From assembly GCF_900172325.1 (NCBI RefSeq), contig NZ_FWFR01000003.1:248001-312000 (forward strand): a DNA stretch of 64,000 nucleotides, written 5' to 3'. Below the pieces are notes generated by a model. That model did no database searches and was not told the DNA's origin. It was given only the letters and a program-made list of their open reading frames with translations. Source of the DNA: Oceanibacterium hippocampi. GTDB lineage: Bacteria; Pseudomonadota; Alphaproteobacteria; Sneathiellales; Sneathiellaceae. The translations under genes were made by a program, and so were the position numbers. The first letter of the stretch is position 1. Each line of letters starts with the position of its first letter. This document shows positions 28,693-36,712 of this stretch, piece after piece.

Positions 28693-31600
28693 TCAAGCCG
28701 CCTTCAGAACCTCGTCGAGTGCCGTCACCGCGGGCATGAGACGGCCCTTCATCGCCTCGTCACGCAGGCGTTCAATCGTCGCCACCAGTTCCGGGCCGCG
28801 CCCGCCCCGCCCCCACGCCGCCAACGCCCGGCCACGGGCGACCGTGAAATCGGGCCAGGGCAACGGCTGCGCGCGCGTATAGGCCTCGAGCCGGGTCGCG
28901 TAGCGCTCGGCCTCGTCCCATTCGCCGAGCACCAGGGCTTGCTCGACAGCGGATTGACCGAACCAGAAGTGATTGTGCGCGACACAGCCCGCATCGAGAA
29001 TGCTTTCGGCTTCCGCCATCGCTTGCCTGCGCTCGGCAGGATCATCGGTCAGCGCGGCCCCGACCGCGAGCACGGTGGGGCCGATGAACGTCATGCCTAC
29101 CTTGCGCACGACGGCAACGGCCCGCCGCGCGAAGTCGCGCGCTTCGGACATTTGTCCTTCCGCGGCACCGAGGCGCGCCAGCAAGACAAGGGACTGGGCC
29201 TCGAAGTTGCCCGCACTCAGCGTGCGGGCCAGATCAAGGGCCCGCCGCAGGTATTCCCGGGCCTCCCCGAAACGCCCCAGCTCCAGTTCGACGCGCCCCG
29301 CCAGCATAAGCCCGAGCAACTCTGCCCGACGGTGCCGGACCTCGGCCGCCATCTCCACGGATTCCAGCGCATCCTCGAGCGCCTCCGGGAACTCCATGAG
29401 ATAGATCCGGGTCCATCCCACCATGTGCCGGTTCGCGACCTCGATCCGGCGGTATCCGTGCTCTCGACAGAGCTTCACACAGGCGCCGAACTGCTCGAAG
29501 GCGGTCCGCATGTAGCCGCGCAGGTAGTAGGCATCGCCGAGCCCGCCCAGCGCCAGAGCCTCGCCCTTGGTCGAACCGACCTCGCGCGCGAATCCCACGG
29601 CCTTCTCGTGCTCCTCCAGACAGCCATCGATATTGCCGAGCGGGAAGTAGACATTGCCGCGCAGATAGTGGATCAGGCCGCGCTCGGACAACAATCCGTG
29701 TTCGGTTGCCGCGGCTTCCGCCTTGTCGAGGGCTTCCAGGGCTGCTTCCTGGCGGTCGGCGACACGCAGTCCCTTGGCCATTCCGACCCAGGCCCGGCAC
29801 CGCTGCACGTCGTCCTCGGCGGAGTCGCGTGCCGACTCGAACGCGGCGATCGATTCTTCTGTGCTCCCGACATTTCTCAGGGAATCGCCGCGGAGGCACA
29901 TCAGCTCGAACCTGGTTGCCGCGTCATCGACAAGTTCGATGCCACGGCCGGTCAGACTGAGCGCGGTCTCGAAGTGGAGCGCCGCGATCCGCGTCCTTGC
30001 CGCCTCCAGGTAAGCGGCCGCAGCGGCCTTGTCACCGGCGCGATCCAGATGTTCCGCGCGGAGCGCGGGATCCTGCTGGCCGTACCAGGCGGCAGCCGCG
30101 CGGTGCAACGCAACGCGTCGGCTCGTGAGCAGCGAAGCGTAAACGCCCTCCTGCACCAGCGCGTGAGCGAAGAGATAGCCCTCCCTCTCCGGCTTGAACA
30201 GATGGCGCGCGAGCAATTGGTCGCAACGGTAGCTCGGGCTTTCCGTCAGGTGGCGCAAGGCGTCGAGAGAGAATCGCTGGCCGAGGACCGAGGCGGCCTG
30301 CAGCGCTTCCTTGTCGGCCGGTGACAAGCGGTCCATCCGCGCCAGGACGAGGCTCTGGATCGATGCGGGGACGTCGTCACCGCCGCTTTCCTCCTCGGCG
30401 TTGCGCAGCAGCTGTTCGAGGAACAACGGGTTGCCCTCGGCGCGCTCGACGCAACTGAGGGCGAGTTGCGTGCTGGTATCGAAAAACGAGTTCGCAAATA
30501 TAAGCGCATCGTTCCTGCGCAAGGGACCCAGGTCGATGGTCACCAGGGGGCATCCGCCGGTCTGGCCGCGCCACTCCTCGTCCAGTGGATCGCCCTCTAT
30601 GCGAGACGTCATGACCAGCACCGCCGGACATTCGGTGACGGTCGCGGCCATACGCGCCAGATACGTGAGCATCAATGGCGCCGCCCAGTGTACATCCTCG
30701 ACGATCACCGTCACGGGTGCGTCCGCGCTCGCGCGCCGCAACAGGTCGGCGACCAGCTTTCGCTTGCCCTCAATACGCGTCGCATTATCCATGGCGTCAT
30801 AGGTCGCACGAACGTCGACCGGCTGCGGCAGGTACAAGAGATCGTTGAGGAAGACGCGCTGGCCCGACGCCAGCAGTCTGTCGGCGACCGCTGCCTCGGC
30901 GGCCTCCCGGAGCGCTGCCTCGCTGCCACCGGGCGGGATGCGGAGAATGCTGCGGACTATCGAACGGATCGCGTCCTGGCCCTTGCCGACACCGAAATCG
31001 AGCACGAGGCCTCTATGGGTGGCGAAGCCTTGCTCCGCAGCGACCCGCGTGAATTCCTCGACCAGCCGCGATTTGCCGATCCCGGCCTCGCCGCGCACGA
31101 CGATCGCCTGCCCGTTGCCGCTCGCCCGGCAGTTTTCAACGATAGCGGTGAATTGCGCCAGTTCGGCGCCCCGCCCGACGAACGCGATGCGCGCCGATGT
31201 ATCCCCTATCCCGCGCAGCAAGACCACCCGCCACACGCGGACCGGCTTTTCGATGCCCCTCACCGCGACGTCGCCCAGCGAGTCGCATTCGACGTGGCCG
31301 GCGACAGCCTGGCGCAGGGCATCGGAAATCAGCGTCTCGCCGGCCTCGGCCCTTTCCTGCAGGCGGGAAGCGAGGTTTACGGAATCGCCGGTCACCGTGT
31401 ACTCGCGATAGGCATCGCTGCCGGTGCCGCTGGCGACAACCTGGCCGCTGGCGAGGCCGATGTGAGCCTGCAGGGGGCGACCAACCTCGTTCGAGAGCGT
31501 CGCCATCCGCTCGTGAATGTCGAGCGCGACGCGAACCGCGCGCAGCGGGTCGTCGTCGTGGGCGGTCGGCGCGCCGAAGACCGCCATCACATTGTCGCCC

Positions 31601-31989
31601 ATGTGCTTGTCGATCGAGCCGCCGTAGTCGGCGACGATACCGTCAACCACTTCAAAGTAACGGTTGAGCAGCGCGTGGGTCTTCTCCGCGCCGAGTTCAC
31701 TCGATAGCCGGGTGTAACCGGCGATATCGGCAAACAGCACGGTGACCTGGCGGCGTTCGCCGGCGCCAATCGCTGGGGCCGTCGGCCCGTCCGCGAATTT
31801 GTCGTCGCTTTCTGAAAGGGACGCGATGGCCTTGAGGATCGTCTTGCGGTCCATCAGGCGGACAACGCCCAGATCCTTCAGGTCTTCATTGGTCAACTCG
31901 GGCAGCAGGTCAAGGTCGACGCCGTTCGCCGCGAACGCCTCGGCGTATTGCTCAAGCCCGAGTCCCGCCAACCAGTTTCCGACGTTCAC
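28693..31989 (-). CDS. SAM domain-class III adenylate/guanylate cyclase-AAA ATPase-TPR protein
   Basis: This 1098-residue soluble protein has four parts. Residues 4-60 form a SAM domain. Residues about 78-260 form a class III nucleotide cyclase with the two metal-binding aspartates Asp88 (FADIAGYT) and Asp132 (KHMGDNVMAVFG) and the transition-state region VNLASRLQ. Residues about 268-600 form a STAND/AAA-type ATPase with Walker A GEAGIGKS (300-307) and Walker B VTVIVEDVHW. The rest is a TPR-like helical solenoid. This architecture is common in alphaproteobacteria and likely makes cAMP under control of the ATPase/TPR sensor. It is monocistronic. Confidence 0.92.
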   Translation of the reverse strand: MNVGNWLAGLGLEQYAEAFAANGVDLDLLPELTNEDLKDLGVVRLMDRKTILKAIASLSESDDKFADGPTAPAIGAGERRQVTVLFADIAGYTRLSSELGAEKTHALLNRYFEVVDGIVADYGGSIDKHMGDNVMAVFGAPTAHDDDPLRAVRVALDIHERMATLSNEVGRPLQAHIGLASGQVVASGTGSDAYREYTVTGDSVNLASRLQERAEAGETLISDALRQAVAGHVECDSLGDVAVRGIEKPVRVWRVVLLRGIGDTSARIAFVGRGAELAQFTAIVENCRASGNGQAIVVRGEAGIGKSRLVEEFTRVAAEQGFATHRGLVLDFGVGKGQDAIRSIVRSILRIPPGGSEAALREAAEAAVADRLLASGQRVFLNDLLYLPQPVDVRATYDAMDNATRIEGKRKLVADLLRRASADAPVTVIVEDVHWAAPLMLTYLARMAATVTECPAVLVMTSRIEGDPLDEEWRGQTGGCPLVTIDLGPLRRNDALIFANSFFDTSTQLALSCVERAEGNPLFLEQLLRNAEEESGGDDVPASIQSLVLARMDRLSPADKEALQAASVLGQRFSLDALRHLTESPSYRCDQLLARHLFKPEREGYLFAHALVQEGVYASLLTSRRVALHRAAAAWYGQQDPALRAEHLDRAGDKAAAAAYLEAARTRIAALHFETALSLTGRGIELVDDAATRFELMCLRGDSLRNVGSTEESIAAFESARDSAEDDVQRCRAWVGMAKGLRVADRQEAALEALDKAEAAATEHGLLSERGLIHYLRGNVYFPLGNIDGCLEEHEKAVGFAREVGSTKGEALALGGLGDAYYLRGYMRTAFEQFGACVKLCREHGYRRIEVANRHMVGWTRIYLMEFPEALEDALESVEMAAEVRHRRAELLGLMLAGRVELELGRFGEAREYLRRALDLARTLSAGNFEAQSLVLLARLGAAEGQMSEARDFARRAVAVVRKVGMTFIGPTVLAVGAALTDDPAERRQAMAEAESILDAGCVAHNHFWFGQSAVEQALVLGEWDEAERYATRLEAYTRAQPLPWPDFTVARGRALAAWGRGGRGPELVATIERLRDEAMKGRLMPAVTALDEVLKAA

Positions 31990-32334
31990 GATGGCCCGTC
32001 CGTTTCCTGGTTCGACCTTCGCAGCACATTAACATAGTGCGCTAAGTAAAGATCAACCAGAACGATGGAACCGATACGGAAAAGAACCGCGAAGCACCGG
32101 CCCACCAGCCGACACAATTTACGGCGACGAGAACTTCGGAACAACGATTCGTTTTATCACTGCGCCGCGCATGAATACTACGGGCACACCGGAGAAGACG
32201 GCCGCACCCCGGGGCGAACCGGCAGGTTGATTGCCCGGGCGTGCCGGGCTCGCGCGTCACGCATCCGCCATTCCGCCGTTGCCAGGTGGAGGCGCTCCTC
32301 GAAGTCGTCACGGGCGGCGAGGCGATGGTCAGGA
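31990..32334. other. 345-base gap without a convincing gene
   Basis: The left part holds the promoter region of the large cyclase gene. Several short frames cross the rest but none shows a recognisable fold, ribosome site or convincing start. It marks the left border of the mercury resistance genes and may contain remnants from their insertion, though I found no terminal repeats. Confidence 0.5.
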
Positions 32335-32748
32335 TCAGGATGCCAGCGCGTCCAGGACAGGACAGTCCGGAACTTCCTCGCCTGAACACTGCGACGCGGT
32401 TCGCGCCAACACGCTCTCGATGCGTCTGAGATCGGCGATCTTTGCCCGAATGTCCGCCAGATGCAGCTCGGTTCGTTCCTTTACCTCGGCGCAGGTCTGG
32501 GTCCCTCCGTCGACAAGGACAAGAAGACCGCGCAACTCCTCGATGGAGAAGCCGAGTTCGCGACCTCGCAGGATGAAGCCGAGGCGCGCCTGATTGTCCG
32601 GCGCGTAGAGCCTGTGCCCGCTGTCCGACCGCTCAGGTTCGGCCAACAGCCCGATCTTCTCGTAATATCGGATCGTCTCGATATTGCAGCCCGAACGCCT
32701 TGCCAGTTCGCCGCGCTTGATCGCCCCTCTCGCCCTCGTGAACGTCAT
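32335..32748 (-). CDS. merR: Mercuric resistance regulator MerR
   Basis: This 137-residue MerR-family regulator has the winged helix in residues 9-75 (GELARRSGCNIETIRYYEKIGLL) and a dimerisation coiled coil. Three cysteines lie where Hg(II)-binding MerR needs them: Cys86, Cys121 and Cys129. The spacing 35 then 8 is close to the 35 then 9 of Tn501/Tn21 MerR. It is divergent from merT and the operator lies between them. It should repress without Hg(II) and activate the mer operon when bound to it. Confidence 0.93.
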   Translation of the reverse strand: MTFTRARGAIKRGELARRSGCNIETIRYYEKIGLLAEPERSDSGHRLYAPDNQARLGFILRGRELGFSIEELRGLLVLVDGGTQTCAEVKERTELHLADIRAKIADLRRIESVLARTASQCSGEEVPDCPVLDALAS

Positions 32749-32763
32749 CAGCGTGGAATCCCC

Positions 32764-32794
32764 TTGAACCTGTAGTTCCTACAGACCCTATCGT
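32764..32794 (+). promoter_or_regulatory. mer operator-promoter (MerR-type 19-base spacer)
   Basis: A -35 box TTGAAC (32764-32769) and a -10 box TATCGT (32789-32794) are separated by 19 bases, the overlong spacer typical of MerR-activated promoters. In the spacer a perfect dyad CTGTAG-TTC-CTACAG (32770-32784) forms the MerR site. Confidence 0.8.
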
Positions 32795-32837
32795 CTCCCT
32801 AGGTCGAGATCGAGAGCGAAATGGTGAGCGAGCCGAC

Positions 32838-33236
32838 ATGGCCAAGTCTGTGGTGGATATCGAAGGGAGTGGCTCCGGATCGATCGAATCCGGTCAGCGC
32901 AAGGGTTGGCTGGCGGCCGGCGGCGTCATCGGCGCGATCCTTGCGTCGTCCTGCTGCATTGTGCCGCTCGTACTGGTCACCCTCGGCATCTCCGGCGCCT
33001 GGATAGGGAACCTCACCGCGCTGGAGCCGTACAAACCCGTTTTCGCGGTGGTCACGCTGGTCTTCATCGGCCTCGGATTCTGGCATGTCTATTTGAAAGC
33101 CAAGCCGGCTTGTGTCGATGGCTCCTATTGCGCACGTCCGCAATCGGGGCTGATCACCAGATCCGCCCTCTGGATCGCAACGGTTCTGGTCATCCTCTCA
33201 CTCACGATCGATTGGTGGGCCCCGCTATTTTATTAG
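32838..33236 (+). CDS. merT: Mercuric ion transporter MerT
   Basis: This 132-residue inner-membrane protein carries Hg(II) into the cytosol for reduction. It has three transmembrane segments, the vicinal pair Cys39-Cys40 in the first helix (ILASSCCIVPLVLV) and a second cysteine pair in the cytosolic loop (KPACVDGSYC), all hallmarks of MerT. It is the first gene of the mer operon, 44 bases downstream of the -10 box. Confidence 0.95.
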   Translation: MAKSVVDIEGSGSGSIESGQRKGWLAAGGVIGAILASSCCIVPLVLVTLGISGAWIGNLTALEPYKPVFAVVTLVFIGLGFWHVYLKAKPACVDGSYCARPQSGLITRSALWIATVLVILSLTIDWWAPLFY

Positions 33237-33256
33237 CCGCTTTGAAGGAGATACCC

Positions 33257-33589
33257 ATGAAACGACCATTCCGTCTTGCGCTATGCGCCCTCGTGCTGGG
33301 ATCCGCGAGCGTCACGGGCGTTGGTGTCTTCTCGCCGCTCGCCGCCCAATCGGCCGCCGAGCAAGCAGCGAGGGTCGAAACGAAAACGTTCGCTATCGAA
33401 AAGATGACCTGCGCGATGTGTCCGATCACGGTCCGGAAAGCCATAGAGCGTGTTGACGGCGTCCGCTCGGTCGAGGTCGACTTCGACGCCAAGACGGCAA
33501 CCGTCGTCTACGACCCGTCGATCACCCAGGCCGAGGCGATCGCCGCTGCCTCGAGCAATGCCGGCTATCCCGCGTCGGTCAAGGGTTAG
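33257..33589 (+). CDS. merP: Periplasmic mercuric ion-binding protein MerP
   Basis: This 110-residue protein has an N-terminal signal peptide followed by a heavy-metal-associated domain with the metal motif MTCAMCP (Cys52, Cys55). MerP binds Hg(II) in the periplasm and passes it to MerT. The ATG at 33257 has a GAAGGAG ribosome site 20 bases after the merT stop. The mature part is of normal MerP length (about 70 residues plus a short linker). Confidence 0.94.
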   Translation: MKRPFRLALCALVLGSASVTGVGVFSPLAAQSAAEQAARVETKTFAIEKMTCAMCPITVRKAIERVDGVRSVEVDFDAKTATVVYDPSITQAEAIAAASSNAGYPASVKG

Positions 33590-33598
33590 GGTCGGTCG

Positions 33599-33847
33599 AT
33601 GAAGGACGCCACTATCGTCAGAACGGGCATCGTCGGCGCGGCCATCGCGGCCGTCTGCTGCGTCACACCGGTGCTGGTTATTGCCCTCGGTGCCCTGGGC
33701 TTCTCCGCCTGGCTAGGCTGGCTGGATTACGTGCTGTTGCCCGCCCTCGCACTATTCCTCGGCATGACGGCCTACGGCTTGTGGCGGCGGCAACGCGCCA
33801 GGGCCTGTTGCTCGCCTGAATCACGAACGGGCAACGAGGGTCTCTGA
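33599..33847 (+). CDS. merF: Mercury transporter MerF
   Basis: This 82-residue membrane protein has two transmembrane helices, the vicinal pair Cys20-Cys21 (AVCCVTPVLV) and a second pair Cys70-Cys71 near the C-terminus (RACCSPE). These two pairs define MerF, an additional Hg(II) importer. It begins nine bases after merP and ends one base before merA. Confidence 0.9.
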   Translation: MKDATIVRTGIVGAAIAAVCCVTPVLVIALGALGFSAWLGWLDYVLLPALALFLGMTAYGLWRRQRARACCSPESRTGNEGL

Positions 33848-33848
33848 C

Positions 33849-35279
33849 ATGTCCGACTGCTGCATACCCCGCGAGAACCTGGCAAGCGGTTACGATCTTG
33901 CCGTCGTCGGCGCCGGATCAGCCGGTTTCTCCGCGGCGATCACGGCGGCGGAGCAAGGAGCCCGGGTCGCGCTTATCGGCCACGGCACGATTGGCGGCAC
34001 CTGCGTCAATGTCGGTTGCGTACCGTCGAAGACCATGATCCGCGCGGCCGAAGCGCTGCATGGGGCGAACGCCGCACGCCGCTTTCCGGGCCTCGTCGGC
34101 GAGGCCCATGTCGCCGATTGGAAGCAACTGGTTGCCGCGAAGGACGACCTGGTCGGGACACTTCGACAGAGGAAATATATCGACCTTCTGCCGGAATACA
34201 GCGGCGTCGCCTATCTTGAGGGAAGCGTTCGGTTCAATGGCGGCGGCCTTCTTGTGAACGGTGGGGCCGTTGGCGCGGACAAGATCGTCATCGCCACCGG
34301 GTCCTCTCCGGCGCTACCCGACATTCCGGGCATTGGCGACGTCCCGTATCTGACCAGCACGACGGCGCTCGAACTGACCGATCTGCCGCGCTCGCTGCTG
34401 GTCATCGGCGGCGGCTATATCGGCTGTGAGCTGGCGCAGATGTTCGCCCGCGCCGGAACCGAGGTGACGCTCGTCACGCGCTCGCGCCTGGTGCCCGGGG
34501 CGGAGCCGGAGATATCGGGGGCGCTAACCGGATTTCTCCGCGATGAAGGCGTCGTCGTGCGAACGGGTCTCACCTATCGACGGATCGCGGGCACGGACGA
34601 CGGGGTCGTCTTGACTGTCGAGACGAAGGGAGAAAAGGAAACAATTCGAGCCCAGCATGTCCTACTGACGACGGGCCGTACGCCCAATACCAGGGATCTG
34701 GGACTGACCGGGGCGGGCATCGAGCTGACTCCGGAAGGCGGTGTTTCGGTCGATGACCGGATGCGGACGACGAGAGCGGGCGCCTATGCGGCAGGCGACG
34801 TGACGGGACGCGATCAGTTCGTCTACATGGCGGCTTACGGCGCCAAGCTGGCGGCGCTCAACGCGCTGAACGGCGACAGCCTCGTCTACGACAATTCCGC
34901 GATGCCCTGGGTCGTCTTCACCGACCCGCAGATTGCCGGCGCAGGCCTTACCGAGGCAGCAGCCCGGGAAGCAGGCTATGAGACCAAGATCTCCATCGTT
35001 CCCCTCGATCAGGTCCCGCGGGCGCTGGCTGCCCGCGACACGCGGGGGCTCATCAAGCTGGTCGCGGATGCAAAGACCGACCGCCTTCTCGGCGGTCAGA
35101 TCCTAGCGCCGGAAGGCGCCGACAGTATCCAGACCCTGGTCCTCGCGCTCAAGCACGAGATGACGGCGACGGCACTCGGGGCGACAATCTTCCCCTACCT
35201 GACCACGGTTGAGGGGTTGAAGCTGGCGGCACAGAGCTTTGGCAAGGATGTGACCAAGCTCTCCTGCTGTGCGGGATGA
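33849..35279 (+). CDS. merA: Mercuric reductase MerA
   Basis: This 476-residue flavoprotein disulfide reductase reduces Hg(II) to volatile Hg(0) with NADPH. It has the FAD motif GAGSAG, the redox pair CVNVGC (Cys52, Cys57), the NADPH motif GGGYIGCELAQ and the C-terminal cysteine pair in LSCCAG that delivers Hg(II) to the active site. It lacks the N-terminal MerP-like domain of Tn501 MerA and instead starts MSDCC. The last bases overlap the next gene (ATGA). Confidence 0.96.
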   Translation: MSDCCIPRENLASGYDLAVVGAGSAGFSAAITAAEQGARVALIGHGTIGGTCVNVGCVPSKTMIRAAEALHGANAARRFPGLVGEAHVADWKQLVAAKDDLVGTLRQRKYIDLLPEYSGVAYLEGSVRFNGGGLLVNGGAVGADKIVIATGSSPALPDIPGIGDVPYLTSTTALELTDLPRSLLVIGGGYIGCELAQMFARAGTEVTLVTRSRLVPGAEPEISGALTGFLRDEGVVVRTGLTYRRIAGTDDGVVLTVETKGEKETIRAQHVLLTTGRTPNTRDLGLTGAGIELTPEGGVSVDDRMRTTRAGAYAAGDVTGRDQFVYMAAYGAKLAALNALNGDSLVYDNSAMPWVVFTDPQIAGAGLTEAAAREAGYETKISIVPLDQVPRALAARDTRGLIKLVADAKTDRLLGGQILAPEGADSIQTLVLALKHEMTATALGATIFPYLTTVEGLKLAAQSFGKDVTKLSCCAG

Positions 35280-35653
35280 ATGGTGCGCCGCATAGGCCGG
35301 CGGATCTCGTCGGCAGTTTCGCTCCCCTCATGCTCTTCTGGGGCCTGCCGATAGCCGCGATGCTTGCCGCCATCGTCGCGGTCCATCCGCTCAAGACGAT
35401 CGTCTGGGCGACGGCGCTGGTCTGGATGGGGGCTGCCTGCCTGGTCAATGCCAGGCGCTGCGGGCGCACGCATTGCTACTTCACCGGTCCGTTCTTCCTG
35501 TTGATGACGATCCCCGTTCTCCTGCATGGCTATCACGTCTTCTGGCTCGGCACCGACGGGTGGAAATGGCTCGGCATTGCCGTTGGCGTCGGCGGCGGCG
35601 GCCTCTGGTGCCTGACCGAGAAGCTCTGGGGCAGGTTTCTCGGCAACGCGTGA
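35276..35653 (+). CDS. Unknown small membrane protein, last gene of the mer operon
   Basis: This 125-residue protein has about four hydrophobic segments and one conserved-looking motif, NARRCGRTHCYFTGPFFL, with two cysteines near the second/third helix. Its start overlaps the merA stop by four bases (ATGA), which implies translational coupling and membership of the mer operon. It is not MerB, MerC, MerE or MerG by any motif I can see. A role in mercury handling is inferred from position and the CxxxxC arrangement only. Confidence 0.7.
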   Translation: MNGAPHRPADLVGSFAPLMLFWGLPIAAMLAAIVAVHPLKTIVWATALVWMGAACLVNARRCGRTHCYFTGPFFLLMTIPVLLHGYHVFWLGTDGWKWLGIAVGVGGGGLWCLTEKLWGRFLGNA

Positions 35654-35836
35654 AGGGGCCGACCGGCCGATGCCCGGACAGCATGTGCCCGTTCCCGGAA
35701 TGCCGGCAATGATCGGCCGCCGGGATCGATCTTTTGCCCTCCTCCGCGCCCTGACTGCGTTTCGGGAATGCCCATGCCGCGATAATGGGTTATCTCGATA
35801 ACGCGACAGGTTTGCCGGAACGCGTGAGGGAGAAAC

Positions 35837-36712
35837 ATGAGTGCAAGGTTCGAAAGAGTGGGCGCGACCGTCGATCTGCTCGGCGAAAGCCCGTTGTGGG
35901 ATGTCGAAACGGCCGCCTTCTACTGGATCGACACCCGTGGCAGGAAGATTCACCGGCTCGACCCGGAAACCGGCGCATATCGCGACTGGTCGGTACCCGG
36001 GCAGATCGGCAGCATGGCGCTTCGCCGGAACGGCGGCGCCGTGATCGCGCTCGACGGCGGCTTCTGGCGCTTCGACTTCTCCGACGGCTCGGCCGTCCCG
36101 ATCGCCGAACCCGAGGCGGATGACCCGCGCACACGGTTCAATGACGGCAAGGTCGATCGGCGCGGCAGGTTCTTCGCCGGCTCGATGGGCATCAGGATCC
36201 GGGACCCGCTGCTCGGCACGCTCTACCGGCTGGACCCCGACATGTCGGTGCATCCGGTCGAGAGCGATATCGGCGTCTCGAACGGACCTTGCTGGAGCCC
36301 CGACAACAAGGTCTTCTACTTCAACGACACGGAAACGCGCCTGGTGCACGCCTACGATTACGATATCGAGACCGGGAGCCTCGGCAACAAGCGGCTCTTT
36401 GTCGACCTCCGGGAGCATGACGGGGCCGGCGACGGGGCGACGGTCGACCAGGAGGGCAATCTCTGGATCGCGCTGGTCTTCTCCGGCGAGATCGCCTGCT
36501 TCGCACCGGACGGGAAGCTCATCGAACGGATCAGGACGCCCTGCAGGATGCCCTCGAGCGTGATGTTCGGCGGGCGCGATCTCGACGTGCTCTACCTCAC
36601 CTCGATCAGCGATACCGGCATTCGCCAGGCCGACGGCCCGCAGGATGGCGGACTGTTCGCGATAACCGGGCTCGGCGCGAAAGGGCTGCCCGAAGTCAGG
36701 TTCGCGGGGTAG
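35837..36712 (+). CDS. SMP-30/gluconolactonase family lactonase
   Basis: This 291-residue six-bladed beta-propeller hydrolase acts on sugar or related lactones and needs a divalent metal. The metal ligands are visible: Glu near residue 17 in LGESPLWD, Asn in RFNDGKVDRRGRF, Asn in GVSNGPCWSPD, and Asp in GDGATVDQEGNLWIA. Length fits the family. A GAGGGAG site precedes the ATG. It is followed 68 bases later by a VOC-family gene; both may belong to a short operon of unknown role. Confidence 0.9.
   Translation: MSARFERVGATVDLLGESPLWDVETAAFYWIDTRGRKIHRLDPETGAYRDWSVPGQIGSMALRRNGGAVIALDGGFWRFDFSDGSAVPIAEPEADDPRTRFNDGKVDRRGRFFAGSMGIRIRDPLLGTLYRLDPDMSVHPVESDIGVSNGPCWSPDNKVFYFNDTETRLVHAYDYDIETGSLGNKRLFVDLREHDGAGDGATVDQEGNLWIALVFSGEIACFAPDGKLIERIRTPCRMPSSVMFGGRDLDVLYLTSISDTGIRQADGPQDGGLFAITGLGAKGLPEVRFAG

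Follow-up and report, generated by a model that had tools for sequence, protein, structure and literature searches.

How Hg(II) passes from the membrane carriers to the mercury(II) reductase MerA without being released is, as far as we are aware, still a question in the mer field. The described proteins closest in kind to the one reported here are those of the MerT, MerF, MerC and MerE families (PF02411, PF11431, PF03203, PF05052), which are small, hydrophobic, Cys-bearing and encoded in mer operons; a cysteine pair in the first helix is needed by MerT and MerE, and mercurial transport by MerE depends on Cys and His residues (accessible text of PMC5715351), and MerC has four predicted spans (accessible text of PMC3466566). 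Optional accessory mer genes have also been listed, among them one named orfY (available portion of PMC5067307), and rhizobial mer operons contain mercury-induced hypothetical genes (excerpted text of PMC11227200).

Within the stretch of DNA analyzed here (64,000 nucleotides, hereafter the window) lies a mer operon in the order merR|merT-merP-merF-merA-X, with merR divergent. The merR-family regulator gene (32335..32748, - strand) scores above the cut-offs of PF09278 and PF00376, and its best NCBIfam match, TIGR02051 MerR, reaches 119 bits, below the cut-off of 151. Between merR and merT, a putative MerR-controlled promoter (32764..32794, + strand) can be read from the sequence as TTGAAC and TATCGT separated by a 19-bp spacer that contains the dyad CTGTAG/CTACAG; a 19-bp spacer is the rule for proteobacterial MerR promoters (accessible part of PMC1526738), and a sigma-70 scan of positions 32300-36000 that allowed 16-18-bp spacers only returned 0 sites. 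On the + strand there follow merT (32838..33236; PF02411, 106 bits against a cut-off of 32.9), a merP-like gene for a periplasmic HMA protein (33257..33589; PF00403 above cut-off, TIGR02052 at 86 bits below its cut-off of 92.6), merF (33599..33847; PF11431 and NF033565, both above cut-off) and merA (33849..35279, 476 aa; TIGR02053, 524 bits against a cut-off of 454), and no HMA domain was found at the N-terminus of this MerA among its Pfam matches. X itself, identified by its open frame, its cysteine motif and an AlphaFold model, is a four-helix membrane protein of 125 aa (35276..35653, + strand), exactly the frame of the original prediction. It initiates at ATG, and the four-base overlap with merA that had been claimed is read at the junction GGGATGAATGG, where the X start and the merA stop share ATGA. 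X is apparently the final gene of the operon, since the next gene on its 3' side, after a gap of 183 bases, is one for an SMP-30/gluconolactonase. X was the sole match in the source genome (E ≤ 0.001). A gene for a signaling protein with SAM, guanylate cyclase, AAA_16 and TPR parts (28693-31989) adjoins merR.

Long open frames like X are frequent in the GC-rich DNA of the window, so the length of this one is uninformative. The existence of relatives and their low dN/dS nevertheless argue that the X frame is more than chance: aligned relatives share 31-59% identity, and dN/dS falls at 0.11-0.32 in 10 of 11 pairs, the eleventh (L035/L036) giving 0.84 from very few differences. X has no match in Pfam or NCBIfam at E ≤ 1, no PHROGs family at E ≤ 0.01 and no match among PDB sequences at E ≤ 1, and 25 relatives searched against Pfam and NCBIfam at E ≤ 10 have no common family, none occurring in more than 4 of the 25; the weak matches of X and these relatives in the Pfam, NCBIfam and PHROGs scans are scattered over TspO, DUF3784, DUF6962 and others. 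Foldseek with the X model found no match in PDB or BFVD at E ≤ 0.001, and a VIA-align comparison over 288 chains returned mostly generic helical bundles, with a best Z of 8.6 in the range that the tool rates uninformative for bundles. In all ten annotated plasmid records examined, X is labeled "hypothetical protein". None of the titles and abstract openings listed in searches of the open PMC literature describes the family, nor do the accessible parts of PMC7765201, PMC7760498 and PMC5895735, and two mer gene surveys mention no such gene in their accessible text (PMC3466566 and PMC8261052).

The view of X as undescribed thus stands insofar as no curated family matches it, and is open to one exception, the optional mer gene orfY (PMC5067307, in its available portion), which could be X. 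The locus L041 has the order merRTPCA-X-merD-merE, in which the relative of X follows merA and precedes a merD-like gene. We take the gene beyond X there to be merD from its sequence; Pfam gives it as MerR family. orfY is known from Tn5041-type operons and, like X, is an optional gene in Gram-negative mer operons. X or a relative may equal orfY.

The original prediction had drawn attention to two cysteines in RCGRTHC and had likened them to the cysteine pairs of MerT, MerC and MerF. RCGRTHC is indeed present (residues 61-67), but the conserved unit is larger: a Cys3-His cluster spanning codons 55-67 (35438..35476, + strand) with the motif CxxNAxxCxRxHC, which has three cysteines (C55, C62 and C67, the first of them overlooked) and also holds N58, A59, R64 and H66. 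C55, C62, H66 and C67 occur in 28/28 representatives (<80% identity), among which G52, N58, A59, R64 and P72 are likewise invariant. The motif is kept in 49 of 50 distinct full-length sequences, the sole exception being L134/L153, in which C62 is replaced by serine; it is missing in 5 of 57 distinct matches, namely L134/L153, three copies that are truncated or carry stops, and L136/L155, which we set aside as a distant cousin.

The comparison with the known transporters fared less well. Unlike MerT, MerC, MerF and MerE, X has no conserved cysteine pair in its first helix (window columns 15-36), where any Cys occurs in 9 of 54 distinct sequences, two occur in one, and the window protein is without Cys; the cysteines and the histidine of its motif gather instead at the junction of helices 2 and 3. 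Histidines are shared with MerE, and four spans with MerC. No HMM of the MerT, MerF, MerC or MerE families matches X; for PF02411 (MerT) this holds at E ≤ 1 for X and at E ≤ 10 for the family matches of 25 members. Profile-profile comparison (hhalign) likewise gave no relationship to MerT, MerF or MerC: X against MerC (PF03203) reached a probability of 1.7 over 29 columns, against a MerC-MerT control that itself reaches only 66.7, the MerF-MerT control being unclean because the MerF set probably included MerT sequences. By the tests run, X is placed outside the MerT, MerC and MerF families.

The AlphaFold model of X (pLDDT 89.8, pTM 0.81) predicts helices at residues 15-34, 37-62, 65-85 and 95-118, in line with the hydrophobic membrane protein that had been expected. 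In this model C55 lies about two turns into helix 2 and shares a helix face with C62, and H66 and C67 start helix 3. Mean Lys+Arg counts per sequence across the 28 representatives are 2.4 at the N-terminal end, 0.7 in loop 1-2, 3.1 in loop 2-3 (the loop that carries Cys), 0.5 in loop 3-4 and 2.5 at the C-terminal end. At two loci (L148, L149) X is fused, in a single open frame, behind a DF family (seleno)protein (NF049942); the model of the L148 fusion (pLDDT 89.8, pTM 0.72) joins an alpha/beta domain to four helices, and its DF part, predicted to be thioredoxin-like, starts with a strand rather than a signal helix and runs into helix 1 of X. Among the first 50 of 633 Foldseek matches to this fusion, most are thioredoxins and selenoprotein-W-like proteins, with probabilities up to 1.0 and no E-value below 0.001. 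From the positive-inside pattern of Lys and Arg and the N-terminal thioredoxin-like fusion, we infer that both ends of X and its Cys/His loop face the cytoplasm.

X is uncommon. It occurs in 7 of 385 genomes of Alphaproteobacteria (E ≤ 1e-5), in 9 of 369 genomes of the class of G634 (E ≤ 1e-8), in 12 of 148 genomes of a third phylum, that of G747, whose record is titled Candidatus Eremiobacterota (E ≤ 1e-6, one of the 12 being the distant cousin), and in 69 of 72,556 plasmid records. Across the window's own phylum, 5 of 398 genomes gave matches, one of them the source genome and two (G734/G736) rejected as weak matches within longer proteins. In the reverse direction, X accompanies merA at only 2 of the 28 loci sampled in Alphaproteobacteria (those above cut-off from 289 genomes, searched 1.5 kb to each side of merA, locus L092 being shorter), one of them the window. 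X is therefore a minority accessory, merA works without it, and the idea that it belongs to every mer operon was rejected. Broken or truncated copies of X next to open merA frames (L004, L015, L016, L020-L022) say the same. In three of these, from Pseudoruegeria, Pseudooceanicola and Rhodovulum (L020-L022), X ends at the same point, about codon 41, beside an open merA, and a break point common to three genera points to a shared site of insertion or recombination.

Whether homologs of X adjoin mer genes can be answered largely in the affirmative. A search of genome contigs with X alone placed MerA (≥40% identity) beside it in 15 of 21 loci, and merA was present in 11/11 plasmid records examined (11 of the 69, some near-identical to each other). 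We clustered 101 X entries at 80% identity into 40 clusters, excluding entries shorter than 70 model columns (L016 and L020-L022, all merA-linked) and keeping L015. X is recurrently encoded in mer operons: merA at ≥40% identity lies within 6 kb in 14 of the 40 clusters, and within 80 bp in 12 of those 14. A further 7 have merR and a gene for a GDCCVxC domain (seleno)protein (NF041374) without MerA (merB in one), 6 have a DF-family gene (two of them fused to X), and 1 has merR/merT only, so that 28/40 clusters have at least one such neighbor within 6 kb and 12 have none; three of the loci with none (L012, L064, L147) extend less than 700 bases on one side. The damaged L015 is counted among the 14 clusters with MerA and the distant cousin L155 among the 6 with DF; leaving both out gives 13, 7, 5, 1 and 12 of 38. 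The suggestion of an accessory mercury protein thus finds support in genomics, in a form not specific to merA, with 14 clusters in which GDCCVxC, DF or merR/merT genes adjoin X without merA and 12 lacking any of these neighbors.

A merF or merC match accompanies X in 11 of the 14 merA-linked clusters, so X does not replace these transporters. Nor does it replace the N-terminal metal-binding domain of MerA, a possibility we rejected since the MerA next to X lacks this domain in the window but starts with a GMTC metal-binding stretch at L037, L041, L062, L063 and L065.

Gene orders in the clusters without merA include merR | merT-merP-GDCCVxC-X (L045), merR-X-GDCCVxC (L047) and merR | GDCCVxC-X-merB (L070, with MerB at L070:6715-7386 by PF03243, E 5e-19, and no merA match in the 15-kb locus); L014 has merR, merT, merP, GDCCVxC and X with a MerA-like flavoprotein at only 30% identity. 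In L145 and L153, both from the third phylum, X is accompanied by a MerT-like and a DF-family gene, all preceded by an ArsR- or MerR-type regulator. The GDCCVxC and DF proteins examined are Cys-bearing, lack the helices and motif of X, and are not homologous to it. Among 7 alphaproteobacterial genomes with X, GDCCVxC occurs in 6 (G296, G097, G122, G238, G003 and G617, and not G000; the X-bearing G206 lies outside this count), compared with 26 of 142 genomes in a sample of that class that includes four of the seven; in G296 and G097, X has no mercury neighbor. Across 24 X genomes, GDCCVxC is present in 8, and in 0/11 of those from the third phylum. On a 38-sequence tree of X, 8 changes of the MerA label are required, with well-supported branches forcing at least 5; the label is only weakly clustered (10.9 changes on average after shuffling, and a value as low as that observed in 17/500 shuffles), and MerA-linked and GDCCVxC-linked sequences are sisters twice, as L038/L048 (support 100/96) and L045/L138 (100/99). 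By this tree X has moved between MerA-type and GDCCVxC-type clusters, and a function that relies solely on MerA is therefore not expected; the forced changes and sister pairs imply a role that fits both partners.

We hypothesize, tentatively and on genomic grounds, that X is an accessory inner-membrane mercury protein, a thiol acceptor at the cytoplasmic face that hands mercury to MerA or to small thiol proteins. X would have four membrane spans and cytoplasmic N- and C-termini, and the Cys3-His cluster, placed where helices 2 and 3 reach the cytoplasm, would form a soft-metal acceptor site; this would take Hg(II) or an organomercurial that arrives via MerT/MerF or is dissolved in the membrane and would pass it, on contact, to a soluble thiol partner, which would be MerA in the window and a GDCCVxC or DF-family thioredoxin-like protein elsewhere. 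X has a nearly fixed Cys cluster predicted on the cytoplasmic side, and its gene overlaps a merA whose product lacks a metal-binding domain at the N-terminus, which makes X a direct candidate for the carrier-to-MerA step. Several observations weigh against the hypothesis: few merA loci carry X, damaged copies lie next to open merA frames, 12 of 40 clusters show none of the neighbors sought, L134/L153 has lost C62, GDCCVxC is missing from 16 of 24 X genomes, and Foldseek matched no solved or viral structure at E ≤ 0.001. The main alternative is that X is a carrier, transporting Hg(II) or organomercurials through the inner membrane like MerC or MerE, via C55 in helix 2 and the cytoplasmic C62, H66 and C67. 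Four helices and conserved Cys and His fit such a role, MerE too requiring both residues (PMC5715351, accessible text), as do the position of X between merP and merA at L062 and L063 and beside merB at L070; yet the missing first-helix pair, the merF or merC match already at hand in those 11 clusters and the lack of profile similarity to MerC, MerT and MerF make a carrier rather unlikely. The acceptor and hand-off role is favored because X lacks that pair, has a Cys3-His site predicted on the cytoplasmic side and adjoins genes for a reductase or a small thiol/selenol protein.

The (seleno)protein families of NCBIfam that partner X in 13 clusters, the ArsR-type regulator at the head of L145 and the 12 clusters without a mer neighbor could also reflect a broader chemistry of soft metals, metalloids or selenium and thiols from which mer operons borrow X, but the regulators and transporters near X are mostly of MerR and MerT type, MerB appears once and the window operon is plainly mer, and we regard this as improbable. 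We give still less credence to an unrelated membrane protein that merely rides mer transposons and plasmids. The 69 plasmid records, a Tn3-family transposase gene less than 1 kb from X in L035 and L036 and the damaged copies would suit it, but mer-type linkage recurs in Alphaproteobacteria, Gammaproteobacteria and the third phylum with the forced label changes noted above, the Cys3-His motif is nearly fixed and 10 of 11 pairs are under purifying selection. A broader and more doubtful proposal would make X an unrecognized membrane hub whose single Cys3-His acceptor delivers Hg(II) or organomercury to interchangeable cytosolic partners (MerA, the GDCCVxC protein or a thioredoxin-fold DF (seleno)protein, at times fused to X), and the merA-less merR-(merT-merP)-GDCCVxC/DF-X clusters a second, overlooked type of mercury system in which small thiols or selenols would trap the mercury and no reduction would take place. 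The presence of X in these clusters offers a handle on the role of orphan GDCCVxC and DF (seleno)proteins.

Several X loci hold further genes of interest. In the Tn3-type mer element of L035, the X stop is overlapped by a gene (L035:6369-6935) whose product, a membrane protein of 188 aa, contains two vicinal cysteines (LLCCTPLLP) and matches neither Pfam at E ≤ 0.01 nor NCBIfam at E ≤ 0.001; similar genes occur in L036, L049 and L065. At the Roseovarius locus L040, two small hypothetical genes without a Pfam match at E ≤ 0.001 lie between merT and merF (L040:2118-2739). A second, glutathione-reductase-like flavoprotein flanks merA or X there (L040:3134-4483), at L034:6409-7755 and at other marine alphaproteobacterial loci; such genes are sometimes named MerK (PMC11227200, in its excerpted text).
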